NCBI RefSeq assembly: GCF_001457035.1
Contig: NZ_KQ758619.1
Location: 248,001 to 312,000 of the forward strand
From: Fictibacillus enclensis
Lineage (GTDB): Bacteria > Bacillota > Bacilli > Bacillales > Fictibacillaceae
Direction of reading: 5' to 3'
Length of the DNA: 64,000 nucleotides
Shown here: one piece after another, positions 1 through 44,602 of the stretch
Position numbering within the stretch: the first letter of the stretch is position 1
Layout of the letters: each line of letters begins with the position of its first letter
The notes under the pieces: model-generated
Told to the model about the DNA's origin: nothing
Seen by the model: only the letters and a program-made list of their open reading frames with translations
The model's database searches: none
Made by a program: the position numbers and the translations under genes

Positions 1-138
<138 letters not shown>

Positions 139-140
139 AA

Positions 141-167
141 AAACCGGGAAGCTCTCCCGGTTTTTTA
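141..167 (+). terminator. Intrinsic terminator after the VOC gene
   Basis: ACCGGGA-AGC-TCTCCCGGT stem followed by a run of six T. The A-run before the stem would allow some function on the other strand. Confidence 0.85.
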
Positions 168-309
168 TTGTAAAAATGGTGTCTCTGGGTATGCAAACCT
201 TTTCACTTGTGGTAATCTGGTATCAACTTAATAATTTAATTTAACAAAGTTCGATAGACGTGTGATGTTTTTTACAACACTTAATAAATACACTCTAGGA
301 GGAAATACA

Positions 310-1290: not shown

Positions 1291-1292
1291 GA

Positions 1293-2471: not shown

Positions 2472-3463
2472 TGGCAATCTTAGTTACAGGCGGTGCAGGT
2501 TATATTGGAAGTCATACGGTGCTGCATTTGCTGAATAAAGGGGAAAAAGTAGTTGTATTCGATAACCTGCAAAAAGGCCACCAGGAAGCGGTTATGGAGG
2601 GCGTTTCCTTTTATAAAGGAGACCTTCATGACAGTGAGCTGCTTGATGCCGTGTTTGCAGAAAATGAAATTGAAGCAGTCATCCATTTTGCAGCAAATTC
2701 ACTGGTAGGAGAAAGTGTGGAACATCCAATCTCCTATTATCAAAATAATGTAGCAGGGTCTTTGAATTTAGTAGACCGCATGGTGAAAAGCGGCGTGAAA
2801 AAGATTGTTTTTTCATCCACGGCAGCGGTATACGGTGAGCCTGAAACGGTTCCTATTTCGGAAAGTGACCGCACGGTTCCAGGAAACCCGTATGGTGAAA
2901 CCAAACTGGCTATAGAGAAACTTCTTTTTTGGGCGGATCAGGCCTATGGCTTGAAGTCGGTAGCCCTTCGCTATTTTAATGCGGCAGGAGCAGATCCTGA
3001 AGGCAGAATTGGCGAAGACCATACACCGGAATCCCACCTTATTCCGATCGTTCTGGAAGCGGCTCTCGGCAAGCGGCCGCATGTTTCGATTTTCGGAGAG
3101 GATTACAAAACGGAAGACGGGACATGCATTCGCGATTACATCCATGTGATGGACTTGGCGGAGGCTCATTATCTGGCCCTCGAAAAGCTCAAACGCACAG
3201 AGGAGAGCGGCGTGTACAACCTGGGTAATGGCACGGGGTTTTCGGTCAAAGAAGTGATTGAAACATGCAGGGAGGTGACCGGACGGGAGATTCAAGCGGT
3301 GTCCTCGCCAAGAAGAGCGGGTGATCCGGCTGTCCTGATTGCATCATCGCAAAAAGCGAAGGATGAACTGGGATGGATTCCTCAATATCCAGATTTGAAG
3401 GAAATCGTCAAACATGCATGGAATTGGCATGTGAATCATCCGGATGGTTATTCCGCTCAATAG
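2471..3463 (+). CDS. galE: UDP-glucose 4-epimerase
   Basis: Interconverts UDP-galactose and UDP-glucose using bound NAD, closing the Leloir cycle. Extended short-chain dehydrogenase fold, 330 aa. NAD-binding GGAGYIGSH at residues 7-15, catalytic SST at 115-117 and YxxxK with Tyr141 and Lys145. Starts on the TAATG overlap with galK and is followed by a strong terminator at 3520, which closes the galTKE transcript. Confidence 0.96.
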   Translation: MAILVTGGAGYIGSHTVLHLLNKGEKVVVFDNLQKGHQEAVMEGVSFYKGDLHDSELLDAVFAENEIEAVIHFAANSLVGESVEHPISYYQNNVAGSLNLVDRMVKSGVKKIVFSSTAAVYGEPETVPISESDRTVPGNPYGETKLAIEKLLFWADQAYGLKSVALRYFNAAGADPEGRIGEDHTPESHLIPIVLEAALGKRPHVSIFGEDYKTEDGTCIRDYIHVMDLAEAHYLALEKLKRTEESGVYNLGNGTGFSVKEVIETCREVTGREIQAVSSPRRAGDPAVLIASSQKAKDELGWIPQYPDLKEIVKHAWNWHVNHPDGYSAQ

Positions 3464-3519
3464 GCATTTGTGGCTCGTAAAAAGGGTATTCTACAACTGA
3501 AAGAAGCTAAGACATTGGA

Positions 3520-3553
3520 GGGGACATGAAAAATCATCATGTCCCCTGTTTTT
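3520..3553 (+). terminator. Intrinsic terminator after galTKE
   Basis: Perfect 10-bp stem GGGGACATGA / TCATGTCCCC with a 7-nt loop, followed by TGTTTTT. Confidence 0.88.
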
Positions 3554-3608
3554 AAAGCACCCGGCATGTGAGAGAAATCTGAGCATGCAGACAAAGGAGC
3601 GATTCAGC

Positions 3609-5615: not shown

Positions 5616-5637
5616 ATCGAATGAAATACAAACTTTC

Positions 5638-5673
5638 CTCCTTTATGACAAGCGCGCATAAAGGAGTTTTTTT
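5638..5673 (+). terminator. Intrinsic terminator after the GH42 gene
   Basis: CTCCTTTATG / CATAAAGGAG 10-bp stem, 9-nt loop, then seven T. Confidence 0.87.
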
Positions 5674-5706
5674 GGTTCTGGCAAGAACATGAAACTTCTT
5701 CGCCTA

Positions 5707-5735
5707 TTGACCCGTATTATATTGTGTAATATGTT
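5707..5735 (+). promoter_or_regulatory. Putative sigma-A promoter of the ABC-2 exporter
   Basis: TTGACC (5707-5712), a 17-nt spacer and TATGTT (5730-5735), about 50 nt before the start codon of the ATPase gene. Confidence 0.6.
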
Positions 5736-5783
5736 AGTATTTGGAAAAGTTGTAAAGGCAGTAACAAAGTTAAAGGAGGAAGT

Positions 5784-6734
5784 ATGGAAACTGTACATAC
5801 CTTGGAGTTAAAAGAAGTGACGAAAAAGATGAAAGGGAAGAATGTGGTGGACCACCTGTCCTTTGGGGTGAGGAAGGGGGAGATCTTTGGACTTCTCGGT
5901 CCGAACGGAGCAGGTAAAACAACCACCATCCGCATGATTGTGGGCTTGATCTCCATGAGCGGGGGCGAAATCCTGGTAAACGGTCTTGATATCCGTAAAA
6001 ACTATGAAAAAGCAATGGAACAGATTGGAGCCATTGTTGAAAATCCACAGATGTATGATTATTTAACCGGATATAAGAATCTCATGCAATATGCGCGCAT
6101 GTTGCCCGGCGTCACCAGGGAACGGATTGATGAAGTGGTAAAGCTGGTGGATCTGGAACAGGCCATCCATAAAAAGGTGAAAACCTATTCTCTGGGCATG
6201 AGACAGCGGCTGGGTGTTGCGCAGGCACTGCTGCATCGTCCCTCCCTCCTCATTCTGGATGAACCGACCAATGGATTGGATCCGCAGGGAATGCACGATC
6301 TCAGAAACTATTTGCGGCTGCTTGCCGACCAGGGAACTTCTGTCGTCGTATCCAGTCATATTCTGGCCGAAATGGAATTGATGTGTGACAGAGTGGCTGT
6401 TATGCAACATGGGAAACTCGTCCGAATTGATAATGTGACGAATGTAACCGATCAGGCGCAGGCCAGGGTGCACTTCCTGCTGGAAAACGAAATGAACGAA
6501 GCCAAATCTCTCCTTGCTGAACACTTTCCGGCAAAAACAGTGGAGGTGTCCGAAAAGGAACTGATTGTAGAAGCAAACACAAATCAGGAAATCGGCGATA
6601 TCAACAAAAGGCTCGTTGAAGCCGGTTTTTTGGTGTATGGGATCCAGGTGAAAAAGAAAACGTTGGAAGAGCGCTTCCTTGAAATGACTGGAAAAGGAGG
6701 GAATCTGAATGAAGTTTCTGTCGCTGGTCAGTAA
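5784..6734 (+). CDS. ABC transporter ATP-binding protein (ABC-2/bacitracin-export type)
   Basis: ATPase subunit of a two-gene exporter, 316 aa. Walker A GPNGAGKTT about residue 40, signature SLGMRQRLG about residue 138 (divergent from LSGGQ as in BcrA/CcmA-like ATPases), Walker B LLILDEP and a C-terminal DUF4162-like extension. AAAGGAGG lies just before the ATG. The stop lies 26 nt inside the next gene, so the two are translationally coupled. Members of this class export peptide antibiotics, lipids or toxins; the substrate is not visible here and no two-component system is adjacent. Confidence 0.9.
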   Translation: METVHTLELKEVTKKMKGKNVVDHLSFGVRKGEIFGLLGPNGAGKTTTIRMIVGLISMSGGEILVNGLDIRKNYEKAMEQIGAIVENPQMYDYLTGYKNLMQYARMLPGVTRERIDEVVKLVDLEQAIHKKVKTYSLGMRQRLGVAQALLHRPSLLILDEPTNGLDPQGMHDLRNYLRLLADQGTSVVVSSHILAEMELMCDRVAVMQHGKLVRIDNVTNVTDQAQARVHFLLENEMNEAKSLLAEHFPAKTVEVSEKELIVEANTNQEIGDINKRLVEAGFLVYGIQVKKKTLEERFLEMTGKGGNLNEVSVAGQ

Positions 6735-26431: not shown

Positions 26432-27412
26432 ATGAAGATTAAACAAACGATTGAACGCATTCCCGGCGGCATGATGTTGATTCCATTGCTGATTGGTGCA
26501 TTGATAAAAACATTTTTCCCGGAACTATTTGATTTGCCGGAATTCAAAAGCTCCTTTACGGGCGGGTTGTTAACTGGAACTTCGGCGTTACTGGCGGCAT
26601 TTTATGTGTGCCTCGGTTCAACCATTCGGTTTGAGGCGACTGGCTATATATTGAAAAAGGGAGTATCCTTATGGGTTGGTAAAATTGGAACCGCTCTTAT
26701 TGTAGCGTTGCTGATCAAAGCCCTCGCTCATGATCAGAATCATTTATTTCTCGGACTTTCCGCGCTTGCGATTGTAGCCGCTTTCTCGGATACAAACGGC
26801 GGATTATACATGGCATTAATGGGCCAGCTCGGCAAGAAAAATGAAGACGTCGCAGCCTATTCCATTATGTCATTGGAGTCAGGACCATTCTTTACGATGT
26901 TGATTCTTGGGGTGGCAGGTCTCGCCAGCTTCCCGTTATTGGCATTTGTCTTTGCCATCCTTCCGTTGATTCTCGGTATGATCCTTGGAAACCTGGACGA
27001 AGACATGCGTACTTTCTTAAGCAAGGCTTCAGATGTAATTATTCCACTGTTTGCCCTTGCACTGGGTGCGGGTATTGATTTAACCAAGGTTGTCCAGGCT
27101 GGAGCCTCCGGAATCATCCTTGGGTTGGGTGTTGTTCTTATCACAGGCATTGTTCTTTTCACAGCAGACCGTATAACTGGAGGCGACGGTGTAGCAGGGG
27201 TGGCAGCTGCATCTACAGCCGGCAACGCTTCTGCGGTGCCATTGGCAGTGGCGGCCGTATTTACAGGCTATAAAGAAGTGGCGGCGGTTGCGACACTGCA
27301 GGTGACCGCAGCGGTTGTTGTCACCGCTATTCTTACGCCAATCCTGACCGCATGGCTCGCTAAACGCACACAAAAGAAAAACACCCGGGGAGAAGTCAAC
27401 GTCTCACATTAA
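26432..27412 (+). CDS. KdgT-family 2-keto-3-deoxygluconate-type permease
   Basis: 326 aa, about ten membrane helices. [20 protein letters not shown] start and [16 protein letters not shown] block are typical of KdgT. The family imports 2-keto-3-deoxygluconate or related sugar acids by proton symport. First gene of a three-gene operon with a DUF1537 kinase and PdxA2, which points to uptake of a four-carbon sugar acid rather than KDG. Weak ribosome site GGCGGGGTT. Confidence 0.88.
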
Positions 27413-27447
27413 CGATCAAAAAGTTTTTAAAAAAGGGGTTTTCTTAC

Positions 27448-28749
27448 ATGCAATTATTTATACTGGCGGATGATCTCACGGGTGCAAATGATTCCGGCGT
27501 CCAATTGTCAAAACAAGGCTTTCGGTCCAACGTTTGGTTTGATGCCTCCCGGGGAGAGGGAGATCGGGCTGATGTGGTGATTTATGATACGGACAGCCGG
27601 GCTGTACAGGAAGAAACAGCATATGACCGGGCACGGCAGGCGGTTACCTTTCTTGAAAACAGAGAGGATGTCCATGTATATAAAAAAATGGATTCTACCC
27701 TCAGGGGGAATATCGGAAGCGAGCTGAAAGCCGTAAGTGACGGCTACAGGCCGGAAATGGTAGTGATTTCTCCGGCCTTCCCGAAGCTCAAAAGGCAGAC
27801 CATCAACGGCACTCTGTTTGTTGACGGATGTCCTGTGGAAAAAACGGAGTTTGGGAGAGACCCAAAAACGCCAGTGAACGAAAGCCATATTCCCACACTT
27901 CTTACGGGGCATGCTACTGGTCAGATTCAAACGATCGATACACAGCTGCTGTCCCGTTCGATTCCGGAGGTCAAAGCAGCTGTCGCTCAAGCGCTGGATG
28001 AAGGGAAAACATGGTTTGTCTGTGATGCTGAAACCGAAGAGCATTTAAAGAAAACAGCATCTGTATTTGCATCCTTCCAAAAAAAAGCGCTGTGGGCAGG
28101 ATCAGCAGGATTGATTGAATACCTTCCGGATGCGCTTGGCCTGCAACCCCCCAAAGAAGCGAATGATGAAACAAGGGAAATCGGAAAAACCCTGACCGTT
28201 TCTGCGAGCTTGTCAGGGACAACAAAAACCCAGCTTGACAGGGTAAAAGAAATGAATGACGTCTGCATGCTCGAAATGGATCCTGCCGATCTTATCCAAG
28301 AAACATATGATGTGCAGACGATTGTGGATGAGGTAAAGCAAAAGAAGGAACAAAAGCATTTTCTCCTTTATGTTGACAGCTGCGAGGAGAATAGGAAAGC
28401 TGCAGAAAAGCTCAGTGTTCAACTGAACATGGACAAAAATCAGATTGGTGAAGCCATTTCAAGAGAGCTTGGCCGCATTGCCCGAAGCCTTTTAATTGAG
28501 TTTCCTGCCATACAGGGACTGGTTTTGACAGGTGGAGATACGGCTAAGGCGGTATGTTCAGAGCTTGGCATGGACAGGATGGAGCTCCGGTCCGAAATCG
28601 AGGCAGGCTTGCCGATCGGCAAATTAAGCAACGAAAACAGTGAATATTGGGCGGTCACCAAGGCTGGTGGATTCGGAAACGAACAATCCTTGGTACACGC
28701 GTTGAAATACATGACAGGAGAGGTGCTGGAATATGAGTCAAGATCATAA
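27448..28749 (+). CDS. Four-carbon acid sugar kinase (DUF1537), D-threonate/D-erythronate type
   Basis: 433 aa, two-domain OtnK/DtnK family. N-terminal ADDLTGANDSGVQLSKQG carries the substrate-binding Asp residues; a TLRGNIGSEL block follows about residue 87; the C-terminal nucleotide domain ends with LTGGDTAKAV and GGFGNEQSLV. The family phosphorylates C4 of D-threonate, D-erythronate or related acids. It overlaps the pdxA2-type gene by 17 nt, which matches the experimentally described pair DtnK-PdxA2 (D-threonate to its 4-phosphate, then oxidative decarboxylation to DHAP). Confidence 0.9.
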   Translation: MQLFILADDLTGANDSGVQLSKQGFRSNVWFDASRGEGDRADVVIYDTDSRAVQEETAYDRARQAVTFLENREDVHVYKKMDSTLRGNIGSELKAVSDGYRPEMVVISPAFPKLKRQTINGTLFVDGCPVEKTEFGRDPKTPVNESHIPTLLTGHATGQIQTIDTQLLSRSIPEVKAAVAQALDEGKTWFVCDAETEEHLKKTASVFASFQKKALWAGSAGLIEYLPDALGLQPPKEANDETREIGKTLTVSASLSGTTKTQLDRVKEMNDVCMLEMDPADLIQETYDVQTIVDEVKQKKEQKHFLLYVDSCEENRKAAEKLSVQLNMDKNQIGEAISRELGRIARSLLIEFPAIQGLVLTGGDTAKAVCSELGMDRMELRSEIEAGLPIGKLSNENSEYWAVTKAGGFGNEQSLVHALKYMTGEVLEYESRS

Positions 28750-29743
28750 AAGTATTGTCGGAATTACTATGGGAGACGCAGCCGGAGTTGGACCGGAAAT
28801 TATTTTAAAAAGTCTCGCTCACCAGGAAATTTATGATCTTTGTGCACCGTTTGTGATCGGTGATGCAAAAATACTCGAGCGTGCAAAAAGCTATGTGAAC
28901 AGTGAGCTTGCCGTTCAAACGATCACAGAAGAAGAACTGGACAACCCTGATTTTCAGTTTGGAACGGTCTACTGTCTGGATCTGAATCTTGTACCTGGAG
29001 ATCTTCCGGTAGGAGAAGTGTCCTCCATTGCCGGACATGCTGCGTTTGAATATTTAAGCAAAGCCATTGACCTGGCCAACCAAAAGAGAATTGATGCGAT
29101 TTGTACTGCTCCTCTTAATAAAGAGGCATTGCATAAAGGCGGCCACAAGTATCCTGGCCACACCGAAATCCTTGCTGAATTGACCAACACCGACGAATTT
29201 TCCATGATGCTTTCTGCGCCGAATTTAAAAGTCATTCATGTGACCACTCATGTTGGCATTTTGGATGCGGTGAAGATGATCAATCCTGAACGAGTGTACC
29301 GTGTCATCAAACTGGCTCATGATACATTGAAAAAGTCAGGCATTGAAACACCGAGGATTGCGGTCTGCGGTATTAACCCGCATGCCGGTGAAAATGGATT
29401 GTTCGGCTATGGGGAGGAAGAAGAAAAAGTAATCCCAGGCGTCCGGAAAGCTCAGGAAGAGGGCATTAAGGTAGTTGGCCCGCTTCCTGCAGACACCTTG
29501 TTTTTCCGCACAGTTCGCGGTGACTTTGATATCGTCGTCGCCATGTACCATGACCAGGGCCACGGGCCGGTAAAAGTGCTCGGGCTCGATGCAGGCGTGA
29601 ACATTACCGTCGGGCTTCCGATCATCCGTACCAGCGTCGATCATGGAACAGCCTTCGATATTGCCGGAAAAGGCATTGCCGAAGAAAAAAGCATGTCCGA
29701 GGCGCTTCGCCAGGCGGTTGAACTGGCTCCAAAAAGAGTTTAA
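28733..29743 (+). CDS. pdxA2: PdxA2-type 4-hydroxythreonine-4-phosphate dehydrogenase family enzyme
   Basis: 336 aa, NAD-dependent oxidative decarboxylase. GITMGDAAGVGPEI start, metal-ligand His residues in VTTHVG (about residue 167), GINPHAGENGLFG (about 212) and YHDQGHGPVK (about 265). In this operon it most likely acts on a four-carbon acid phosphate from the preceding kinase, giving DHAP and CO2, not in vitamin B6 synthesis. Terminator follows. Confidence 0.9.
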   Translation: MSQDHKSIVGITMGDAAGVGPEIILKSLAHQEIYDLCAPFVIGDAKILERAKSYVNSELAVQTITEEELDNPDFQFGTVYCLDLNLVPGDLPVGEVSSIAGHAAFEYLSKAIDLANQKRIDAICTAPLNKEALHKGGHKYPGHTEILAELTNTDEFSMMLSAPNLKVIHVTTHVGILDAVKMINPERVYRVIKLAHDTLKKSGIETPRIAVCGINPHAGENGLFGYGEEEEKVIPGVRKAQEEGIKVVGPLPADTLFFRTVRGDFDIVVAMYHDQGHGPVKVLGLDAGVNITVGLPIIRTSVDHGTAFDIAGKGIAEEKSMSEALRQAVELAPKRV

Positions 29744-29759
29744 TCATTTAAAAGAGGAA

Positions 29760-29790
29760 GAGAAGGCAGAAGATGCTTTCTCTTTTTTTG
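29760..29790 (+). terminator. Intrinsic terminator after pdxA2
   Basis: GAGAAGGCA / TGCTTTCTC stem (one GU pair), 5-nt loop, then seven T. Confidence 0.82.
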
Positions 29791-29971: not shown

Positions 29972-30000
29972 TTGAATTTTCAGAATACGTCTCTTACAAT
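29972..30000 (+). promoter_or_regulatory. Putative sigma-A promoter of the ROK/PIG-L/ABC/lyase operon
   Basis: TTGAAT, exactly 17 nt, TACAAT. The start codon is 120 nt downstream. The inverted repeat AGTTAG-N9-CTAACT at 30009-30029 overlaps the expected start of transcription. Confidence 0.65.
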
Positions 30001-30119
30001 GGACGCAAAGTTAGGCATCTTTACTAACTAACCATTTTTTTATCCCCACTTTTATTTCCACATCAAGAGGCTTCATCATCCCATTGATCAAAGGAAGACT
30101 AAATAAAAGGAGAGAAGTG

Positions 30120-31322
30120 ATGAAATCCAATCACAAGAGCGGGACCGCCTTTATGAAGGAAAAGAACAAGCGATGTGTTCTCCGTTGTGTAAAAGAAAAA
30201 GGACCGATCTCACGCTCTGAAGTCGCCGATCAGCTTCAGCTGTCCAAACCGACCGTTTCTGCCCTTGTGGAGGAGCTTCTTCAGGAAAATTGGCTAAAAG
30301 AAGTCGGACCGGGAAGCGCCGGCCTGGCTGGCGGGCGAAAGCCTATCCAGCTGTTATTCAACTCCAGGGCGGCTCACGTCATCGGAATCGATATGGGGGG
30401 CACAAAGGTAAGGGCGGGCATCTGTGATCTCGATGGCCAATTGCTTGCTGCCGATGAATTTCCAACCCAAACCCAAAAGAAATCGCTTTTGAAAGCATTG
30501 AAGCAAAACGTAGAAAACCTTTTGAATCAAGCTTCCCTAAATCCTGATGACATCCTCGGCATGGGCATTGGCGCGCCCGGAATGACGGATACAGAAAGAG
30601 GAGTAGTAATTGATGCCCCTAGTTTGAACTGGACGCAGTATCCTTTAAAAAAAGAGGCGGAGGCTTTATTTCCGTGGCCGGTCATGGTGGATAACGATGT
30701 GAATGTGGCTGTCCTTGGTGAACAGTGGCTTGGCGCGGCCAAAGGGATGGACCATGTGGTGCTGATTTCCATTGGTACTGGAGTAGGGTGCGGAATGCTG
30801 ATCAATGGCCAGCTTTACCGTGGAGCGACTTGGGCTGCAGGCGAAATCGGCTATATGGTCACGGATATGGCTAAAGCGAGATGTGCAGACCTTCCGCCAC
30901 CACATGAGGGGTACGGCTTTTTAGAACAATATGTGGGAGGCGCCGGAATCGTCCAGAGCATGAAGCAGGAACTAAAAGACCAGCCAGAGTCGCTCTTTCC
31001 AAATCATTTCTCCGCAAAGGATGTTTTTCAAAAAGCGAAGGATGGAGACCGGGCAGCAGGTAAGGTCCTTGATGAGGTAATTGATCATATTGGATTTGCT
31101 GCAGCCAACATGATTTCAATTATAAATCCTGAAGTTGTTCTTTTAGGAGGTGGCATTTCAAGAAGTGCAGATTGGTTTTTGCCCAGGATTCAGAAGACCA
31201 TCCAAGATTTTGCTCCGGTATCGGCCCCGGTGCTTCCCACAGCTTTGAGAGAAAACCTCGGGGTTGTCGGTGCTGTATCGCTTGTGCTTAGGGAAACGGA
31301 AAGTGTACTTAAAGAGCTGTAA
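30120..31322 (+). CDS. ROK family transcriptional regulator (NagC/XylR type)
   Basis: 400 aa. N-terminal winged helix (residues about 15-75: GPISRSEVADQLQLSKPTVS), then a full ROK sugar-kinase-like domain with DMGGTKVRAG (about 97-106) and ISIGTGVGCGM. The usual ROK zinc cluster CxCGxxGCxE is not kept: the segment reads CADLPPPHEGYGFLE with a single Cys, so zinc binding may be lost or altered. Start at 30120 after AAAGGAG. First gene of a six-gene same-strand run; likely a sugar-responsive repressor of that operon, with an inverted repeat in its leader. Confidence 0.9.
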   Translation: MKSNHKSGTAFMKEKNKRCVLRCVKEKGPISRSEVADQLQLSKPTVSALVEELLQENWLKEVGPGSAGLAGGRKPIQLLFNSRAAHVIGIDMGGTKVRAGICDLDGQLLAADEFPTQTQKKSLLKALKQNVENLLNQASLNPDDILGMGIGAPGMTDTERGVVIDAPSLNWTQYPLKKEAEALFPWPVMVDNDVNVAVLGEQWLGAAKGMDHVVLISIGTGVGCGMLINGQLYRGATWAAGEIGYMVTDMAKARCADLPPPHEGYGFLEQYVGGAGIVQSMKQELKDQPESLFPNHFSAKDVFQKAKDGDRAAGKVLDEVIDHIGFAAANMISIINPEVVLLGGGISRSADWFLPRIQKTIQDFAPVSAPVLPTALRENLGVVGAVSLVLRETESVLKEL

Positions 31323-31337
31323 AAAGGAGATGGATTC

Positions 31338-33845
31338 ATGAAACGTTTCATGGCTGTTATGATATCTGTCCTGTTGACCTCTATCTTGATGGTTCCAGCG
31401 AGTGCGCAGGAACAAACAGCAAGTGAAAAGCCGAAAGATCTATGGAGTGCGTTAAAGCCCCTTGATACCATCATCAGTTTCCTCAATACAGGCGCCCATC
31501 CGGATGATGAGCGAAGCGACCTGCTTGCCTACTTATCCCGTGGAAAAGGGGTAAGGACGGCGAGCCTGATCGCGAACCGTGGAGAAGGAGGCCAGAATGA
31601 AATCGGTAACGAGCTCGGAAATGCGCTCGGCATCATTCGTTCAAGAGAGCTGATTGAAGCCTCAAAAGTGACAGGGGTAACGGTGTACCACCTCAGCCGC
31701 AAACCGAGCGATGAAATTTATGACTTTGGGTTCTCCAAATCAAAAGAAGAAACGCTGGCGAAATGGGGAGAACAAACTGCCTATGAACGGGTCATCCGCA
31801 TGATTCGTACATACCGCCCGGATATTGTTATGCCCTCGTTTTTGGATGTGGATACGGAGCACGGCCACCACAGAACGATGAATTACCTGACGATTAAAGC
31901 CTATCAGGATGCTGCAGATCCCAATGTGTTTCCGGAGCAGCTGAAAGAAGGGCTCAAGCCATGGGCCATCAAGAAGCTTTATCTGCCCTCCGACCAGAAA
32001 AATGCGACCACTTCCTTTGAAATCGGCATGATGGATGACGTATATGGCAAAACCTATCCGCAAATCGGTGAAGAATCCCGTTTTCTACACAAAAGCCAGG
32101 GGATGGGCCAGGACATACCTGCTGTACCAAGAACCATCAACCTGAAGCTTGAGAAATCCAGAGTGGGAACACCGGGAAAAGAACAAACTCTTTTTAATGA
32201 GATTCCTTATGATTTTAAAGAGTATGCCGGCACGCTCAGCGATAAACGTGTGAAGAAGAAGCTGGTAAAGCTGCAGGAAGAGTTTGATGGGATGATTGAA
32301 GAATATCCGAACAGAGCGGCGATTGCCAAAGATGTATATCCGGCCATCAAGCATACCGAAAAGCTGGAGAAACTTGTGAAAAACAGCTCAATGCCAACGG
32401 AAACAAAGAGTGATTTGCTTTTCCGTCTCGATATTAAAGAAAAGCAGCTTATGAATTTGGCGGCAGAAGCATCCAATGTGGATGTGCGTGTGGATCTCAA
32501 CCAGCCTGTACTTGTTCAGGGCGGCTCTGCAAGAGTCACCGTCACTGTAAAAAATAACGGAAAGCAAACGCTCAAATACGTGAAGCCAGCCCTTCACCTG
32601 CCAAAAGGCTGGAAACAGGCGGGGAATGTACCAAAAACAAAGCTGAAGCGCGGCCAATCGCAAAAATTCACGTACGGAATTAAGGTTGCGAAGAATGCTT
32701 CTTATTATCAGCCGTATGATCCTTCTGTCATCACGGCCAGTATTGCTTATAAGGTTCATGGAACAACATCACAAAAAACGTATGAACCGGAACAGACAGC
32801 AGCGGTCCTGCCGGATGTATCGGTTACAAATGATCCGGAGAGCCTGGTGGTCAATACGGCCGACCTGAAAGATTCAATCCAAGTGAAGGTAGAAGCGAAA
32901 AACAATACTGCCGGAAAAGAATCAGCGGTGCTGCATCTTAATGCCCCAGAAGGCTGGAACGTGACCAACAATGATCAGGAGATTACCTTCAAGGAGAAGG
33001 GTGAAGTTCAAAGTGCCACGTTTACCATAGACCTTCCTCAATCGGTAAAAGAGAACGACTACAACCTCCAGCCGGAAGCCAGGGTGAACGGAAAACAGCT
33101 GAGCACATCGGTTCAGGTCATCTCGTACCCTCATATTGGCACCTTCTATTACTTGTATGATGCGGGAACGAAAGCAACCGCTTTTCCACTCCACTTTGAT
33201 GTGGATAAAAAAATCGGCTATGTGGAAAGCGGGTTTGACAGCGTGTCCGGCAAGCTGCGTGCGGTAGGAATGAACGTTGTCTCCCTTGAAAAGGGTGAGC
33301 TGGAATCAGCGGACCTTTCCCAATTCGACACGATTGTGGTCGGCATAAGGGCATACCTCTCCAGGGAGGATTTGCTTCAAAATAACAGCAAGCTGCTGGA
33401 TTTTGTGAAAAATGGCGGTCACCTGGTGGTTCAATATCACAAGCCGGAAGACAAGTGGGATGCTGAAAAATCAGCGCCGTACAAGCTTGTGATCGGCAGC
33501 CCGTCTATCCGCTGGAGGGTAACGGACGAGAATGCAAAGGTAACGATGACAAAGCCGGAACATCCTTTATTTAATACACCAAACAAAATTACCGACAGTG
33601 ACTGGGACCACTGGGTACAGGAACGGGGTCTCTATTACCCAAGTGATTGGGACAACCATTTTGAGACGTTTGTCAGTATGGCCGATCCCGGTGAGCAGCC
33701 ATTTAACGGAGGCATTTTGATGACGGACTATGGAAAAGGAAGCTATTTGTATACCAATCTCGTATGGTACCGCCAAATCCAAAACAACGTGCCGGGCGGA
33801 TACCGGATTTTTACGAATTTAATTGATTACTCCAAAGAGCAGTAA
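31338..33845 (+). CDS. Secreted PIG-L family N-deacetylase with NEW3-like and ThuA/GATase-like domains
   Basis: 835 aa, with a signal peptide (residues 1-23, cleavage near ASA-QE). Residues about 45-280: PIG-L/LmbE zinc deacetylase with AHPDDE (53-58) and EHGHHRTM as the second metal His region. About 385-600: two beta-sandwich NPCBM-associated (NEW3) modules. About 605-835: class I glutamine-amidotransferase-like (ThuA-type) domain. PIG-L enzymes remove N-acetyl groups from GlcNAc conjugates or related amides. Starts 15 nt after the ROK gene and is followed by binding protein, ATPase, permease and lyase. Acts outside the cell, so it probably prepares a substrate before uptake. Confidence 0.88.
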   Translation: MKRFMAVMISVLLTSILMVPASAQEQTASEKPKDLWSALKPLDTIISFLNTGAHPDDERSDLLAYLSRGKGVRTASLIANRGEGGQNEIGNELGNALGIIRSRELIEASKVTGVTVYHLSRKPSDEIYDFGFSKSKEETLAKWGEQTAYERVIRMIRTYRPDIVMPSFLDVDTEHGHHRTMNYLTIKAYQDAADPNVFPEQLKEGLKPWAIKKLYLPSDQKNATTSFEIGMMDDVYGKTYPQIGEESRFLHKSQGMGQDIPAVPRTINLKLEKSRVGTPGKEQTLFNEIPYDFKEYAGTLSDKRVKKKLVKLQEEFDGMIEEYPNRAAIAKDVYPAIKHTEKLEKLVKNSSMPTETKSDLLFRLDIKEKQLMNLAAEASNVDVRVDLNQPVLVQGGSARVTVTVKNNGKQTLKYVKPALHLPKGWKQAGNVPKTKLKRGQSQKFTYGIKVAKNASYYQPYDPSVITASIAYKVHGTTSQKTYEPEQTAAVLPDVSVTNDPESLVVNTADLKDSIQVKVEAKNNTAGKESAVLHLNAPEGWNVTNNDQEITFKEKGEVQSATFTIDLPQSVKENDYNLQPEARVNGKQLSTSVQVISYPHIGTFYYLYDAGTKATAFPLHFDVDKKIGYVESGFDSVSGKLRAVGMNVVSLEKGELESADLSQFDTIVVGIRAYLSREDLLQNNSKLLDFVKNGGHLVVQYHKPEDKWDAEKSAPYKLVIGSPSIRWRVTDENAKVTMTKPEHPLFNTPNKITDSDWDHWVQERGLYYPSDWDNHFETFVSMADPGEQPFNGGILMTDYGKGSYLYTNLVWYRQIQNNVPGGYRIFTNLIDYSKEQ

Positions 33846-33855
33846 GGAACGGAAG

Positions 33856-33881
33856 CAGGAGAGCAGCGCCTCTCCTGTTTT
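33856..33881 (+). terminator. Internal hairpin between the PIG-L and binding-protein genes
   Basis: Perfect 8-bp stem CAGGAGAG / CTCTCCTG, 6-nt loop, then TTTTCC. A weak terminator or an RNA-stabilising stem inside the operon. Confidence 0.5.
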
Positions 33882-33913
33882 CCCTAATTATTTTTTTAAA
33901 GGAGTGAACCGTA

Positions 33914-35002
33914 ATGGCTGGAAAAAAAGCATTATCCTCTATAGCAGGTGCTGTTGTCAGTTTATCGCTGCTCTTAAGCGGATGCATGGCGGGCAGCCAG
34001 ACTGACAAAGCGAGCGGAGATAAAAGCAAGAGTAATTTGGAAGAAAAGGTTGTCATCTATTCACCGCACGGCAAGGATATTCTGCAGGAATTTGAAAAAA
34101 AGTTTGAAGCTAAAAATCCGAATGTCGATGTGGAATGGCTCGATATCGGATCCCAGGAAGTGCTGGACCGGGTTCGTTCGGAAAAGAAAAATCCTCAGGC
34201 CGATGTTTGGTGGGGCGCTCCTTCTGTCATGTTCAACCAGGCGAAGGGGGAAGGGCTGCTCGAGCCGTATAAACCAACGTACGCCAAGGCACTCGAAGAT
34301 GAGTTTCATGACAAAGACTGGGCATGGAGCGGAACGAGCCAGACGCCCGAAGTCATCATGTACAACAGCAAGAAGCTGTCAAAGGGAGAAGCGCCAAAGG
34401 ACTGGGATGACCTCTTGGATTCCAAATGGAAGGATAAAATTATTATTCGTTATCCTCTCGCATCCGGAACGATGAATACCATTTTCTCCGCAATGATATA
34501 CCGCGATTACAAAGATTCAAAGGATCCCAAGAAAGGCTACGAGTGGCTGCAAAAGCTTGATGCCAACACGAAAGAGTATTCCGCGAACCCTGAAATCATG
34601 TACAGCAAAGTGGCTAAAGGGGAAGGAACGGTATCGGTTTGGGATATGCCGGACGTTGTCATGCTGAAGGAAGAAAAAAATTATCCGTTTGACTTTGTCA
34701 TTCCCGAGAGCGGGACGCCTGTACTGACCGAAGGAATCGCTCTTGTGAAAAATGCCAAACATCCAAAAGCAGCGAAAGCGTTCTATGAGTTTGTGAATTC
34801 CAAGGAAGCCAACAAAATTCTCGCTGAAAAGCATTACCGCATCCCGACCCGTACGGATATTGATAACCTGCCAAAATGGATTGAAGAAACAAAAATCAAG
34901 CCCATGGACATTGACTGGAAGGTCTTTGAAAGCAAGTCCAACGGGTGGATGGAATATTGGGATAACAACATTAAAAACAAAGAAAAAGAACAAAAAGAGT
35001 AG
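33914..35002 (+). CDS. ABC transporter substrate-binding lipoprotein
   Basis: 362 aa. Lipoprotein signal with lipobox LLSGC (Cys at about residue 24). The mature part, beginning VVIYSPHGKDILQEF, belongs to the cluster of Fe(III)/phosphonate/polyamine-type binding proteins (SBP_bac_6-like). The Tyr ligands that mark ferric-binding proteins are not obvious to me, so an organic ligand is possible. Encoded with its ATPase and a fused permease; AAAGGAG ribosome site. Confidence 0.88.
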   Translation: MAGKKALSSIAGAVVSLSLLLSGCMAGSQTDKASGDKSKSNLEEKVVIYSPHGKDILQEFEKKFEAKNPNVDVEWLDIGSQEVLDRVRSEKKNPQADVWWGAPSVMFNQAKGEGLLEPYKPTYAKALEDEFHDKDWAWSGTSQTPEVIMYNSKKLSKGEAPKDWDDLLDSKWKDKIIIRYPLASGTMNTIFSAMIYRDYKDSKDPKKGYEWLQKLDANTKEYSANPEIMYSKVAKGEGTVSVWDMPDVVMLKEEKNYPFDFVIPESGTPVLTEGIALVKNAKHPKAAKAFYEFVNSKEANKILAEKHYRIPTRTDIDNLPKWIEETKIKPMDIDWKVFESKSNGWMEYWDNNIKNKEKEQKE

Positions 35003-35028
35003 TTTTTCGAGGAGAGGGGGAGCTGGAC

Positions 35029-36141
35029 ATGTCATCCGTAACGCTGAAAAACATCACAAAGTCATTTAAAACCGTTCAGGCGGTAAAAGAACTCAGTCTG
35101 GACATTCAAAAAGGGGAATTCTTTACCTTTCTGGGTCCGAGCGGCTGCGGAAAAACGACGACACTCCGGATGATTGCCGGATTTTATTACCCTACAACAG
35201 GTTCCATTTTCTTTGGGGACCGGGAAATGACGAAAGTCGCCCCGGAAAAGCGTAATACCGGCATGGTTTTTCAAAATTATGCCCTGTTTCCGCACATGAC
35301 GGTTTATGAAAATGTCGCATTCGGTTTGAAGGTCCGGAAGCTGGCATCGGCCGAGGTGAAAAAGAGAGTAGAGGAAGCGCTTGCCAAAGTCCGGCTGAAT
35401 GCTTTTATCAAGCGGCAGGTTAGCCAGTTGAGCGGGGGCCAGCAGCAGCGGGTGGCCCTCGCCCGCTCTCTGGTCATTCAACCGGAAATCCTGTTGCTCG
35501 ATGAGCCGCTAAGTAACCTGGATGCCAGGCTGAGAGATGAGATGAGAACGGAAATTTTGCGGCTGCAGCGGGACTATGGAATTACCACCATTTATGTTAC
35601 GCATGACCAGATCGAGGCGCTCTCGATGAGCGACCGGATCGCTGTGTTTAATGCGGGAGAATGCCAGCAAATCGGCACGCCCAAAGAAATTTACAACGAA
35701 CCGGCCAATGACTTTGTGGCCTCTTTTATCGGGGAGACGAACTTGATTCCGATCCAGATGGAGGGGCGGGAAGGAGAAATACTTCAGTTTTCATGGGAGG
35801 ATGACAACAACAAGAGGCTTATGGCAGAGATGCCGGCTGCGTTTTCTGAAGAAGAGCTTTTGTCCGTTTCGATACGGCCCGAGGCAGTAGAGGTGTACGG
35901 GGAGCCCCCTGTAAATCTGCAAAACGTGTATGAGGGGACCATCGAGCTGGCCCAGTTCACGGGAGCCTCTCTTAATCTCTTTATCTCACTTGGTGGAAAA
36001 GTGGTGCAGGCGATGGTGCTGAACACCATGGCACAACCGGAGCCCGAGCCCGGGGACCGGGTGTGGGTAAGGCTCCCTGAATCCCGTGTGCGTGTCGTTC
36101 CGCGTGTGCTGGAGCCAAAGGAAGGACGGAGGATTTCATGA
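35029..36141 (+). CDS. ABC transporter ATP-binding protein (PotA/FbpC type)
   Basis: 370 aa. Walker A GPSGCGKTT (about residue 36), Q-loop VFQNYALFPH, signature LSGGQQQRVALAR (about 135), Walker B LLLDEPLSNLD and H-loop VTHDQ. C-terminal TOBE-type domain. Energises import together with the lipoprotein and the fused permease; its TGA overlaps the permease ATG. Confidence 0.93.
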   Translation: MSSVTLKNITKSFKTVQAVKELSLDIQKGEFFTFLGPSGCGKTTTLRMIAGFYYPTTGSIFFGDREMTKVAPEKRNTGMVFQNYALFPHMTVYENVAFGLKVRKLASAEVKKRVEEALAKVRLNAFIKRQVSQLSGGQQQRVALARSLVIQPEILLLDEPLSNLDARLRDEMRTEILRLQRDYGITTIYVTHDQIEALSMSDRIAVFNAGECQQIGTPKEIYNEPANDFVASFIGETNLIPIQMEGREGEILQFSWEDDNNKRLMAEMPAAFSEEELLSVSIRPEAVEVYGEPPVNLQNVYEGTIELAQFTGASLNLFISLGGKVVQAMVLNTMAQPEPEPGDRVWVRLPESRVRVVPRVLEPKEGRRIS

Positions 36142-37823
36142 AGAACCGGGACCATCGTTTCACACTTCTCCTTTTAATCCCGGTTGTTCTTGTTCTGGTG
36201 GCGTACGTTCTCTATCCATCGCTGCGCACACTGATTGAGAGCTTTCAAAACAAGGAAGGCTGGAGCGGCGGAAATTACAAAGATTTCTTTGCCTCTGAAA
36301 GCCGGTCCAACCTGCAGGCGCTTTGGAATTCGGTTTATATCTCCCTTTTGAGTGTTTTCTTTTCCGCCCTGATCGGTGTGCCGCTTGCCTTTATTTTTAA
36401 CAAATATGAATTTCCGGGCAGGAGTTTCTTCTCGAGCGCTGCCATCCTTCCAATTGTTCTTCCGTCACTTGTTGGAGTAATGGCGTTCATGTTTTTGTAC
36501 GGAGAGTCGGGGCTTGTTCCCAATGCGATGAAAGACCTGTTCGGACTGGAAAATGTGCCGTTTAAAATCGGCGGTGTGTCCGGCATCCTTATCGTTCATG
36601 CGTATACGATGTACGTTTACTTTTATATGACCGTCTCGAGCACAATCCGGAGCATTGATCCCTCTCTTGAGGAAGCGGCATACAACCTGGGCGCCAGCCG
36701 GATGACCGTGTTCAGAAAGGTGACGCTTCCCCTTTTGACCCCCGCGATTGTGGGAGCATCGCTTTTGGTGTTTATGACCTCCATGGCTTCTTTTAGTGCT
36801 CCTTTCCTGCTGGCGGGGGGCTTCAGGGTGCTCAGTCTGCAAATCTATTTTTCAAAAGTCAACGGCAACCTGTCCATGGCTGCCACCCAATCTGTCATTT
36901 TATCCATCGTATCCATCTCATTTTTGCTGTTCATGAGATGGTACCAGAACCGTCGTGATTACCGGATGGCCACCAAAGGGATTGGCGCTCACCGCAGTGA
37001 AATCAAAAATCCTTTGTTAAAAGGACTGATGGTTGCGGTTGGGATTGTGGGTGTCATCATTCTTCTTCTTCCGCACATGACCATTTTGATCCTGTCGCTC
37101 GTCCCGGACGGCACGTGGACGTATCAAACCTATCCTTCCGCGTTTAATGGAGAAAATTATTTATTTTTATTTACAGAGCCAAAAATATGGAACCCGGTGC
37201 GGAACAGTTTGATTCTGGCGTTTCTGGCCACGCTCGGAAATCTGGTGTTTGGCGTGCTGACGTCCTATGTCCTCGTGAAACGAAAGTTTGTCGGCAAGAA
37301 TATGCTGGATATTATGGTGATGCTTCCGTGGGCATTGCCTGCTACGGTGGTGGGGATGAATCTCGTGCTGGCGTTTAATGAATCCTCCATATTTACGTTT
37401 GGGCATATCCTGGTGGGCACCTTCTGGATTTTGCCGCTTGCCTATTTTATCCGGCATATCCCGCTGGTTGTCCGCTCGACTAACGCGACACTCGAACAGC
37501 TGGATGACTCCCTTGAAGAAGTGGCCCGCAACCTCGGGGCCAAGTGGTTTTATCTGTTTCGGAGAGTCGTGCTTCCACTTGTGATGCCGGGAGTGATGGC
37601 CGGCACGCTGCTGGCATTTGTGGAAGCGGTCGGCGAATTTCCCACGTCGGTTTTGCTGTATACGCTCGGCAACCGGCCGATCTCAATTGAAATTATGAAC
37701 CAGCTCCGCATGTTCAACATGGGGCAGGCGGCCGCCTATGGAATGATTCAAATCAGCCTGATCGGCCTGGTGCTGTTCATTTCGAACAAGTTTTTCGGCA
37801 TCAAAGCCGAGCGGTCCCTCTAA
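36138..37823 (+). CDS. ABC transporter permease, two fused BPD_transp_1 units
   Basis: 561 aa, about 12 membrane helices. Two EAA loops are visible, one per half: LEEAAYNLGASRMTVFRKVT (about residue 180) and LEEVARNLGAKWFYLFRRVV (about residue 460), as in FbpB/ThiP-like fused permeases for iron, thiamine or phosphonates. Starts on the ATGA overlap with the ATPase gene; 21 nt before the lyase gene. Confidence 0.92.
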   Translation: MKNRDHRFTLLLLIPVVLVLVAYVLYPSLRTLIESFQNKEGWSGGNYKDFFASESRSNLQALWNSVYISLLSVFFSALIGVPLAFIFNKYEFPGRSFFSSAAILPIVLPSLVGVMAFMFLYGESGLVPNAMKDLFGLENVPFKIGGVSGILIVHAYTMYVYFYMTVSSTIRSIDPSLEEAAYNLGASRMTVFRKVTLPLLTPAIVGASLLVFMTSMASFSAPFLLAGGFRVLSLQIYFSKVNGNLSMAATQSVILSIVSISFLLFMRWYQNRRDYRMATKGIGAHRSEIKNPLLKGLMVAVGIVGVIILLLPHMTILILSLVPDGTWTYQTYPSAFNGENYLFLFTEPKIWNPVRNSLILAFLATLGNLVFGVLTSYVLVKRKFVGKNMLDIMVMLPWALPATVVGMNLVLAFNESSIFTFGHILVGTFWILPLAYFIRHIPLVVRSTNATLEQLDDSLEEVARNLGAKWFYLFRRVVLPLVMPGVMAGTLLAFVEAVGEFPTSVLLYTLGNRPISIEIMNQLRMFNMGQAAAYGMIQISLIGLVLFISNKFFGIKAERSL

Positions 37824-37844
37824 TGCAGAAGGAGGACACTAAAA

Positions 37845-39353
37845 ATGAAATTTAAGGAAGCATTTATAAAGGAAGAAGGACGAACATTTCCGGGGAAAAC
37901 GTATGAGGAACATTTACTAAAGCATGTGTTCAATGATCAGCGCGATTACCTGTTTACAGAGATGTTTGCCATTCACAGGGCGCATGTCGTGATGCTTGCC
38001 GAGCAGAATATCATTAAAAAGGAGGAAGCGGCGAGGATTCTGGCCGGTGTGGAAAAAGTAAGGCAGATCGACTGCAGCCAGCTGATTTATGATCCTCTTT
38101 TTGAAGACCTATTTTTTATGATGGAAAGCAGGCTTGCTGATGAAATCGGTCCGGACCTTGCTGGGAAAGTTCACATCGCCAGAAGCCGGAATGATATGGG
38201 TGTCGCGATGTACCGGCTTGTGTTACGGCGGCATATTTTAACGCTCATTGATCATGCACTCGGGCTTGGTGATGCGCTGTTGGAACAGGCAAAGGAGCAT
38301 ACCGAAACTGTGATGACCGCCTATACTCATACCCAGCCGGCCCAGCCCACCACGCTTGGCCATTATTTGTTGGCGGTCTACGACATACTGGACCGGGACA
38401 TTCGCCGGCTTTGGTCAGCTTATCACACGGTTAATGCTTCTCCGATGGGCGCGGCTGCGCTCTCCACGACAAGCTTTCCCATCAGCAGAGACCGGATCCG
38501 TGAACTTCTTGGGTTTAGAAGTATTGTTGAAAACTCCTATGATGCCATTGCAGGAGGAGACTACTTATTGGAGACGGCATCTGCTGTAATGATCCTCATG
38601 ACCGATACCGGCCGCTGGATTCAGGATTTTCTTCAGCAGGCTACACGTGAGTTTGGTGTTATTCGTGTAGCCGATCCCTACGTGCAGATTTCAAGCATCA
38701 TGCCGCAAAAACGAAATCCGGTGTCGATTGAACATTCCCGCTCGTTGGCCAGTTCGGCCGCTGCCGAAGCGATGGCCGCCATTCATATGATCCACAATAC
38801 GCCGTTTGGAGATATCGTGGATACAGAGGATGACCTGCAGCCTCACTTGTACCGAAGCTATGAAAAAGCCTCCCGCGTCCTTAAGCTCATGAAAGCTGTA
38901 ATCACAACGATGGAAGTGGATGTAGAAAAAATGAAACAGCGGGCAAACCAGTCCTTCATCACGATCACCGAGCTTTCAGATGTGCTGGCCCGCGATAAGG
39001 AAGTGCCTTTCCGCAAAGCCCACCAAATTGCCAGTGTGGTTTCTAAAAATTGCGCAGCAGCCGGTAAAGAGCTGTATGAAGTCTCGGCAGACACGGTAAA
39101 CGGCTGGATCAAACCATTTTTTGATGTGACTTTAACCAACGAAGAGTGGGCGGCAATCACAAATCCCCTGGAATTTGTGCAGCGGCGAAGGATTCAGGGA
39201 GGCACAAACCCCGTGGAAGTCAGCAGAATGATTTCGGAACGCGAAAAGACCCATGAGAAGCTGGTCCAAAGACTTGCAGACGAACAATCTTACTTAAATC
39301 AATGCAGCCAGCTGCTGGATACAGCCGTTCAAGACAGGATTGCAGATAAATAG
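37845..39353 (+). CDS. Argininosuccinate-lyase-like C-N lyase (fumarase/aspartase superfamily)
   Basis: 502 aa, complete superfamily fold: HIARSRNDMG (110-119), THTQPAQPTT (161-170) and the signature SSIMPQKRNP (283-292) with the catalytic Ser. Compared with true ArgH, the HTGRSRNDQ motif is changed (IA for TG, Met for Gln), and the enzyme is encoded after an ABC importer rather than with argG. The superfamily eliminates fumarate from N-succinyl compounds; EDDS lyase is a similar-sized relative acting on an aminopolycarboxylate. The likely role is to split fumarate from an imported N-succinyl-type ligand. Strong AAGGAGG ribosome site. Confidence 0.85.
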   Translation: MKFKEAFIKEEGRTFPGKTYEEHLLKHVFNDQRDYLFTEMFAIHRAHVVMLAEQNIIKKEEAARILAGVEKVRQIDCSQLIYDPLFEDLFFMMESRLADEIGPDLAGKVHIARSRNDMGVAMYRLVLRRHILTLIDHALGLGDALLEQAKEHTETVMTAYTHTQPAQPTTLGHYLLAVYDILDRDIRRLWSAYHTVNASPMGAAALSTTSFPISRDRIRELLGFRSIVENSYDAIAGGDYLLETASAVMILMTDTGRWIQDFLQQATREFGVIRVADPYVQISSIMPQKRNPVSIEHSRSLASSAAAEAMAAIHMIHNTPFGDIVDTEDDLQPHLYRSYEKASRVLKLMKAVITTMEVDVEKMKQRANQSFITITELSDVLARDKEVPFRKAHQIASVVSKNCAAAGKELYEVSADTVNGWIKPFFDVTLTNEEWAAITNPLEFVQRRRIQGGTNPVEVSRMISEREKTHEKLVQRLADEQSYLNQCSQLLDTAVQDRIADK

Positions 39354-39362
39354 TAAAGAGAT

Positions 39363-39733
39363 TCAGGGCTTAAGCAAATGATGCATCATACGGTCAGGAT
39401 CATCAAAAAATTGCTTCATCACTTGATAATGCTGGGTTTCCTCCAAGTTCACCTCTTGCATCCCATCTCCAGTCAGTTCCACGATTTTAGCTGAAGGATA
39501 CGCCATTATAATGGGCGAGTGGGTTGCAATAATAAATTGCGAATGGTCGCTGACGAGCTCATGAATCCTGGAAACCATGGACAGCTGCCTGAGGGGAGAA
39601 AGGGCAGCTTCCGGCTCGTCCAGAATTCGTTCAACGATTTTACAGCCGCCAAATTGAAAGGAAAAGAATTGAATCCCGGAACCTTGTCCCGGTTCAGCCG
39701 GATGCTTCGGAAATAAGGAGAATACAGATCCAA
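39363..39733 (-). pseudogene. AAA family ATPase remnant with large internal deletion
   Basis: Minus strand. An intact start (GGAGG, 8 nt, TTG at 39733) opens a frame with FRSIRLNRDKVPGF and SFPFNLAAVKSLNEF, the N-terminus of small AAA_21-like ATPases. A different frame then carries the end of the same kind of protein: LDEPEAALSPLRQL (Walker B), IIATHSPIIMAYPSAKI (sensor region) and a stop at 39363. The Walker A and middle, about 130-150 residues, are missing and the frames differ by two, so the gene is a deletion pseudogene. Confidence 0.82.
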
Positions 39734-39804
39734 GATATCTACCTCCGATCTAAAAAGATAATATTCATATTATAGTATAATGAGAGAAACAGGAGGTGCC
39801 TGAA

Positions 39805-44411: not shown

Positions 44412-44602
44412 TTCTCCTTGAACGATAAGGCATACAGGATGGAAGGCCTACAAGCGGAACAACTTTCGGCCTATTGTTTCTCGAACTCTAGTTATTTAGT
44501 ATAACCATATAACAATATTACATATTTTTAACATTCATTTAATAATTTTCCATTACTGTATTCCTGTATGCCTAAATATGTTCACAGGAGGAAGCGATCT
44601 TA

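Follow-up and report, generated by a model that had tools for sequence, protein, structure and literature searches.

What does a bacterium degrade with a regulator, an apparently secreted deacylase, an importer, and a lyase that are all encoded side by side? This question is raised by a six-gene operon of Fictibacillus enclensis (class Bacilli; assembly GCF_001457035.1), which lies on the + strand within a stretch of 64,000 nucleotides (nt) of contig NZ_KQ758619.1 (positions 248,001 to 312,000) that was analyzed here and is called the window. The operon encodes a ROK-family transcriptional regulator (rok, 30120–31322, 400 amino acids (aa), Pfam ROK plus winged helix), a putative secreted PIG-L/LmbE-type N-acyl-glucosamine deacylase (pigL, 31338–33845, 835 aa, Pfam PIG-L plus NPCBM_assoc), a substrate-binding lipoprotein of the Fbp/Phn type (sbp, 33914–35002, 362 aa, Pfam SBP_bac_8/6), an ATP-binding cassette (ABC) transporter ATPase with a TOBE domain (abcA, 35029–36141, 370 aa, Pfam ABC_tran plus TOBE_2), a fused two-domain ABC permease (36138–37823, 561 aa, Pfam BPD_transp_1 in two stretches), and a lyase from a distinct clade of the aspartase/fumarase superfamily (37845–39353, 502 aa, Pfam Lyase_1 plus ASL_C2). 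The verified open reading frames, with gaps of 15, 68, 26, −4, and 21 nt, bear out the one-strand layout described in the initial annotation, and a Shine-Dalgarno-like stretch was seen by eye ahead of all six genes. We give about an even chance to the reading that this operon catabolizes an N-acylated glucosaminyl-malate derived from other cells, with bacillithiol (Cys-GlcN-malate) and its precursor N-acetylglucosaminyl-malate (GlcNAc-malate) as the likeliest candidates. The argument builds on the anatomy of the operon, a palindrome shared with its relatives, the conservation of the gene set, a separate lyase clade, and the linkage of this clade to PIG-L proteins, importers, hexose kinases, and the glucosamine-6-phosphate deaminase NagB.

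A pattern-based scan of a genome collection with the lyase yielded 66 loci, mainly from Bacillaceae and Fictibacillaceae. At 52 of them, the complete set of six lies no more than 10.5 kb from the lyase (within that distance, hits came from 65 of the 66), although some copies at these loci are split or partial (rok in L007, pigL in L038 and L068); one of the other loci (L071) is a fragment. This linkage is far beyond chance, and the conserved co-occurrence of the six families, which the initial annotation had proposed to look for, is thereby borne out. The single-operon layout is a minority, with pigL collinear at 7 and divergent at 45 of the 52 loci. One locus (L019), in a record named Chryseobacterium sp. 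ISL-80, is very close to that of Cytobacillus oceanisediminis (L070), and the record name is probably wrong.

The genes also share a candidate control element. A sigma-70-like promoter (TTGAAT-17-TACAAT, 29972–30000, + strand) precedes rok; the “one good promoter” of the initial annotation is thus present as a 9/12 consensus match, but promoter-like sites show no excess over shuffled sequence (16 in 12 kb versus 12.5 ± 3.2), and the promoter alone is not above chance. Stronger evidence than the promoter match itself is the inverted repeat AGTTAG-N9-CTAACT (30009–30029) eight bases past the −10 box, the proposed ROK operator, which in relatives takes the longer form GTTAGTTA-N7-TAACTAAC. This palindrome, scored as at least 13 of 16 matches and at most 450 nt upstream of rok, was found at 51 of the 52 rok-bearing loci, with two separate sites at 44 of them, against a background of 8 further hits across all 1.37 Mb of loci; at divergent loci, pigL and rok each have a site nearby. 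At the sole miss (L007) the rok frame is split, and a 13/16 site lies upstream of its first part. When matches with at most one mismatch were counted genome-wide in 35 genomes (the genome of L024 was left out), 31 had matches, each within the operon locus by coordinates, and four had none, while the reversed pattern, used as a control, gave a single match in each of five genomes. The F. enclensis genome holds one exact operator site, at this locus, and one site with a single mismatch elsewhere; in the window, the longer form occurs once exactly and once with two mismatches (44491–44513; 0.25 expected). A wider regulon that might have pointed to the pathway was therefore not obtained, as the palindrome, where found, is confined to this locus and adds no further genes, so that the genes are best seen as a self-contained regulon with the ROK protein as its probable local repressor.

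Related clusters outside the scanned loci place the lyase in the company of sugar genes. Among 72,556 plasmid records, matches to an alphaproteobacterial lyase of the same clade (E < 1e-70) were found on 27 and matches to the PIG-L protein on 32, of which 21 were full-length (at least 80% covered); all 21 also carry the lyase, with the two genes about 5 kb or less apart. Fourteen annotated regions from the 27 lyase records were read in detail, and one more that was retrieved carries no annotation. Each combines a lyase, annotated as argininosuccinate lyase, with a carbohydrate-type importer; PIG-L stands beside ROK in nine (L104–L111, L117), a ROK regulator is present in 11, and another regulator was seen in L113 and L114 and none in L116. 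Sugar-kinase-type genes occur in nine regions: as PfkB, ribokinase, or “sugar kinase” in L104, L105, and L108–L111, as a short ROK protein in L115, and in L107 and L112 as ROK proteins with N-terminal extensions that might instead be regulators. NagB or NagB-II is encoded in three regions; the proteins of L107 and L112 pass the NagB model TIGR00502, and for the SIS protein of L115 the best-fitting model is NagB-II, at a score below its cut-off (313 versus 430 bits). The PIG-L-less region L112 has the order ROK, followed by binding protein-permease-permease-lyase-ATPase-ROK protein-nagB. Two regions have further neighbors: siderophore-uptake genes adjoin the cluster of L115 (Roseomonas, 1–6354), and a glycoside hydrolase family 9 gene lies near that of L112 (Paroceanicella, 3174–5543).

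Within the Bacillota, 398 genomes were searched with a profile built from 18 lyases, and 15 of the 19 hits at E < 1e-110 fall in the clade (L125–L129, L149–L157, L159). Importer genes are linked to all 15 lyases, of the Fbp type in L125 and L127–L129 and of the sugar type in the other eleven (the cluster of L153 ends at a contig edge after the binding protein), and ROK is linked in 12. The lyase is accompanied by PIG-L in eight clusters (recovered in part in L152 and L153), by an Amidohydro_2 protein in four, and by a creatininase-family protein in two, where it lies between permease and lyase, a place taken by PIG-L or Amidohydro_2 in other clusters (L127, 8222–9331; L128, 10922–12019); none of these was found in L125. 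Unrelated metal amidohydrolases may thus take over the role of the deacylase. Three clusters contain a sugar-kinase-type gene. L125 forms the single row rok-sbp-abcA-permease-lyase-PfkB-nagB, and its nagB is the only TIGR00502 match in its genome (G272); the closest PDB entries to the BadF-family kinase of L129 are a hexokinase and N-acetylglucosamine/N-acetylmuramate kinases, and L149 has a relative of this kinase (28%). In L151, a nagB (53% to that of L125) precedes Amidohydro_2, ROK, and lyase genes. NagB or NagB-II is therefore linked in 5 of the 29 related clusters, well above chance by a rough estimate in which one nagB per 3–4 Mb falls within 10 kb of a given gene in less than 1% of cases, the clusters being not fully independent; the window operon has no nagB, and the genome has its own elsewhere. 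Four hits (L158, L160, L161, L162) were dropped, as they lie outside the clade and lack its signature. They are ArgH-like lyases with NPI or NPT where readable, accompanied by GntR-like regulators in L158, L160, and L161 and by a dehydrogenase-like gene in L158 and L162 (named by eye).

The importers differ in type, being sugar importers in all 14 plasmid regions and in 11 of the 15 Bacillota clusters and anion importers in the other four and at loci of the window type. Both types would suit a substrate that is at once a sugar and an anion. In the window, the binding protein starts with the lipobox LSGC (by eye); the PDB entry closest to it in sequence is a pyridoxal-phosphate binding protein, followed by Fe3+-type binding proteins, and the protein misses all nine listed NCBIfam cut-offs. 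Among the listed models, the ATPase passes only that of the broad potA subfamily and the permease that of modB. A structure model of the binding protein was poor (predicted local distance difference test (pLDDT) 53) and was not used.

Could the lyase simply be a second argininosuccinate lyase, with an operon that imports argininosuccinate or an arginine derivative? We consider this extremely unlikely, despite the argininosuccinate lyase annotation in all 14 plasmid regions and a score above the cut-off of the NCBI argH model. The genome contains five Lyase_1 genes, including, by sequence reading, AspA-like (beside an asparaginase-like gene), FumC-like, and PurB-like ones, and its ArgH follows directly after ArgG at another locus (L004) and is only 29% identical to the lyase. 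In a maximum-likelihood tree of 98 rows (quick, midpoint-rooted, and with a long-branch warning, so that its inner order was disregarded), the lyase falls in a clade of 93 rows with support of 100, apart from ArgH and four other lyases; the clade comprises the window lyase, 64 from the scanned loci, 13 from Alphaproteobacteria, and 15 from the further Bacillota. The lyase is not the arginine-pathway ArgH of this genome, and a second ArgH would leave PIG-L, NagB, and the kinases unexplained as well as the replacement of the ArgH motifs NPD and LAYN.

The active site also bears on the bond that is cleaved. In the aspartase/fumarase superfamily, the motifs SRND, TH, and SSxMPxKxN hold the fumarate half of the substrate, and all three are kept (SRND at 114–117, TH at 161–162, SSIMPQKRN at 283–291). 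Where ArgH has NPD and KGLPLAYN, the lyase has NPV (291–293) and HNTPFGD (317–323), and the motif HNTP[FY]GD recurs in 63 of the 64 scanned lyases, with H[NA]..[FY].D in distant rows of the clade. The best PDB matches of the lyase are a variant (5e-63) and the wild type (3e-62) of ethylenediamine disuccinate (EDDS) lyase, and its nearest solved relatives cleave C–N bonds. In EDDS lyase, R112, N113, Q159, N288, D290, and Y320 lie near the substrate, according to PMC12363623. The D290 position is Val293 in the window lyase, Val in all 64 readable lyases of the scanned loci and in 17 of 18 diverse clade rows (Ser in L126), and that of Y320 is no Tyr (Asp323 or Ile324, according to gap placement). 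With the Asp gone, the leaving group may well be something other than a cationic amine, and we propose that the enzyme is a hexosaminyl-malate lyase that would release fumarate. The initial annotation had speculated on a chelator, in which case EDDS, iminodisuccinate, or a related N-succinyl amine would be split after uptake for nitrogen or metal. Besides the PDB matches, such a role could draw on a lyase of the same clade that follows an MmgE/PrpD and fumarase operon in three Fictibacillus genomes and on the siderophore-uptake neighbors in one of the 14 plasmid regions; yet the missing Asp and Tyr, the sugar kinases, NagB, and sugar-type importers of related clusters, and the ROK-type regulator make this very improbable.

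The PIG-L protein passes its Pfam model (56.3 versus 28.2 bits) and has the metal motifs AHPDDE (HPDDE at 54) and HGHH (at 175). In its predicted structure (pLDDT 79.5, with lower values near parts of the catalytic motifs), a catalytic domain at the N terminus appears to be followed by a helical linker, beta-sandwich domains, and an alpha/beta domain at the C terminus. Among the fold matches, the beta-sandwich protein RbmA ranks first, followed by diacetylchitobiose deacetylase (E 4.5e-8, template modeling score by target 0.58), LnmX, and MshB; how these distribute over the domains is our reading of the model. A sequence search found LnmX alone at E < 0.001, and the NCBIfam models of Mca (36.6 versus 277 bits) and MshB (23 versus 224 bits) were not reached, with no BshB model listed. 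Every LmbE/PIG-L enzyme that had been identified by 2014 has a substrate with an N-acetyl- or N-acyl-glucosamine core (PMC4101496). The acyl group that the protein here removes could differ from acetyl. The protein starts with a signal peptide, whereas eight alphaproteobacterial homologues (L104–L111) do not (both by eye); the external deacetylation of the initial annotation thus suits the Bacillaceae, but action outside the cell is not essential. The diacetylchitobiose deacetylase, which is the top-ranked PIG-L-type fold match, and the NPCBM_assoc and beta-sandwich regions, which suggest a carbohydrate surface, could also fit a hexosamine linked to another fumarate-like acid, or a larger N-acyl-glucosamine glycoside such as a chitin or wall fragment with a dicarboxylic ether. 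A glycoside hydrolase gene is found near the cluster in one plasmid region (L112), but the annotations of the other 13 include no glycosidase, and no common ether of this kind besides glucosaminyl-malate is known to us; we regard such substrates as quite unlikely.

Glucosaminyl-malate is reached by three steps of reasoning. The linked kinases and NagB imply that glucosamine is left over, the lyase family implies that a succinyl-type unit leaves as fumarate, and an N-acylated glucosamine hardly takes a second N-substituent, so that the succinyl unit is probably carried on oxygen. To our knowledge, the bacillithiol core Cys-GlcN-malate is the only natural compound of this kind. A hexosamine with an N-succinyl group, such as the Heyns product that fructose forms with aspartate, N-(1,2-dicarboxyethyl)-glucosamine, would likewise yield glucosamine and fumarate by C–N cleavage, with PIG-L handling acylated or polymeric forms. 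This would explain kinase and NagB equally well, agrees with the C–N cleavage by the nearest solved relatives, and is mainly possible in the several clusters without PIG-L; however, it leaves the frequent PIG-L unexplained (52 of 66 loci, 21 plasmid records, and 8 of 15 Bacillota clusters), and the Asp of the compared C–N lyases is Val here, so that we hold it to be unlikely, albeit with an appreciable chance.

For glucosaminyl-malate, we infer the following route. The secreted PIG-L enzyme would remove the N-acyl group, the lipoprotein, ATPase, and fused permease would import the anionic GlcN-malate, and the lyase would beta-eliminate the malyl group to give fumarate and free glucosamine by breaking a C–O rather than a C–N bond. 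After phosphorylation, the glucosamine would be deaminated by NagB, whose gene belongs to the cluster in some lineages and lies outside it in the F. enclensis genome, and the ROK protein would repress the operon via the palindrome until a sugar ligand releases it. The scheme of the initial annotation, to trim outside, import, and split inside, fits this co-regulated and linked set for N-deacylation, import, and fumarate-type elimination, and its guess of a sugar-amine pointed in the right direction, given that the linked hexose kinases and NagB indicate a hexosamine. The wider claim, that the superfamily includes a new reaction in which a sugar hemiacetal is beta-eliminated from a glycosyl-malate during bacillithiol or GlcNAc-malate catabolism across Bacillota and Alphaproteobacteria, seems to us somewhat short of an even bet. 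Searches among open-licence papers, judged by title and the start of the abstract, brought up none on such a pathway. If true, a glycoside would be opened by a fumarate-releasing lyase instead of a glycosidase, the aspartase/fumarase superfamily would gain C–O glycoside elimination, and annotations as argininosuccinate lyase or bare PIG-L could be corrected in many genera.

Bacillithiol reaches 3.5–5.2 mM in stationary-phase cells, and BshA and BshB supply its precursors GlcNAc-Mal and GlcN-Mal (PMC4360819). The host and seven other tested genomes of scanned loci have a match to the bacillithiol synthesis protein BshC, as do 4 of the 15 other Bacillota hosts (G090, G129, G383, G101). Several observations weigh against our reading. 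In a host that makes bacillithiol, GlcN-malate should be present in the cytosol, and a lyase that is not tightly repressed would draw on the same pool as BshC. The other 11 of the 15 hosts have no BshC match (two of these genomes are less than 90% complete), so that the cluster does not track bacillithiol synthesis; such hosts fit scavengers, without this proving the substrate. The argH model TIGR00838 is passed with 342 versus 279.5 bits. In PIG-L, the substrate-binding Arg109 of BshB is unmatched by motif spacing, with Glu174 here and Gln in most relatives. PIG-L is missing from 5 of the 14 plasmid regions and from 7 of the 15 Bacillota clusters. Three of these regions and three of these clusters (L126, L150, and L156) gave no ROK, and L113, L114, and L116 have no annotated PIG-L, kinase, or NagB. 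Finally, 13 of the 66 loci have the lyase without rok (L011–L014, L016, L018, L020, L023, L054, L058, L062, L065, L066), with remnants of the permease in L020 and L054 and of pigL in L020, and lone lyases may have another use.

Genes for cysteine or sulfur metabolism, which would suit bacillithiol because it contains cysteine, were considered as a substrate clue and given little weight, as the support they lend is poor and the linkage of the aminotransferase, the one tested, is weak. They comprise a SufS-like aminotransferase near the clusters of L104 (15323–17686, there beside a Blh-like metallo-beta-lactamase protein below its cut-off) and L107 (1716–3734), an annotated cysteine dioxygenase in L110 (15294–15947) that has no NCBIfam or Pfam match, and an SDH_alpha protein in L126 (8301–9533). 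The aminotransferase gene is present on 79 plasmid records, at least 52 of which do not carry the lyase, since the latter occurs on only 27. In six Aminobacter records and L107 the two genes are roughly 10 kb apart or closer, but a long distance separates them in two Aminobacter MSH1 records and one A. niigataensis record.

Among the loci without rok, those of three Fictibacillus genomes (L011, 174–11497; L012; L013) have a lyase of the same clade after a row of genes for a SucC-like ATP-grasp protein, MmgE/PrpD, a fumarate-reductase-type flavoprotein, a further FAD protein, and two fumarase-type subunits, with a gap of about 120 nt in L011; this lyase may act on another dicarboxylate conjugate. 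In the window, a hairpin identified by sequence scan in the gap between pigL and sbp (33851–33882, + strand) perhaps sets the expression ratio of the genes around it, although terminator-like sites as a class show no excess over shuffled sequence; an Rfam scan of the window gave nothing at gathering scores. Upstream of the operon lies a kdgT-dtnK-pdxA2 unit (26432–29743), which is followed by a terminator-like hairpin (29753–29789) and whose dtnK and pdxA2 match the NCBIfam D-threonate kinase and dehydrogenase models below the cut-offs; linkage of pdxA2 to the operon is confined to the closest relatives (L006–L008), and the unit is therefore separate. Just past the operon, an open stretch of 128 codons on the − strand (39363–39749), perhaps a gene remnant, looks by eye like the C-terminal region of an ATPase of the AAA/ABC type (LDEPEAALSP, IIATHSPIIMAYP).

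Parts of the proposed route resemble known systems. The importer has the same binding protein, ATPase, and permease families as those of the Phn, Fbp, and AfuA types, from which it differs in the binding protein falling below the nine NCBIfam cut-offs. With BshB and Bca the operon shares a PIG-L-type metal deacylase, which acts on N-acyl-glucosamine in known members and on GlcN-malate in our model (PMC4360819 and PMC4101496). Here, however, the deacylase is linked to an importer and a lyase, is an apparently secreted multi-domain protein of 835 aa, and does not match Arg109. EDDS lyase (PDB 6g3d; PMC12363623) and ArgH have the fold family, SSxMPxKxN, and SRND in common with the lyase, TH being also found in ArgH, and fumarate is the expected product in each case. 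The differences are the Val in place of Asp, the lack of Tyr at the Tyr320 position, the HN.P[FY]xD motif, the linked sugar genes, and the proposed C–O cleavage. Catabolic operons for N-acetylglucosamine and chitobiose encode a NagC/ROK regulator, NagA, and NagB, and the ROK regulator, a sugar importer, and, in some clusters, a hexose kinase and NagB recur here; unlike those operons, none of the 14 plasmid regions has an annotated NagA (the Bacillota regions were not searched for it), and it is the lyase that would set the hexosamine free.

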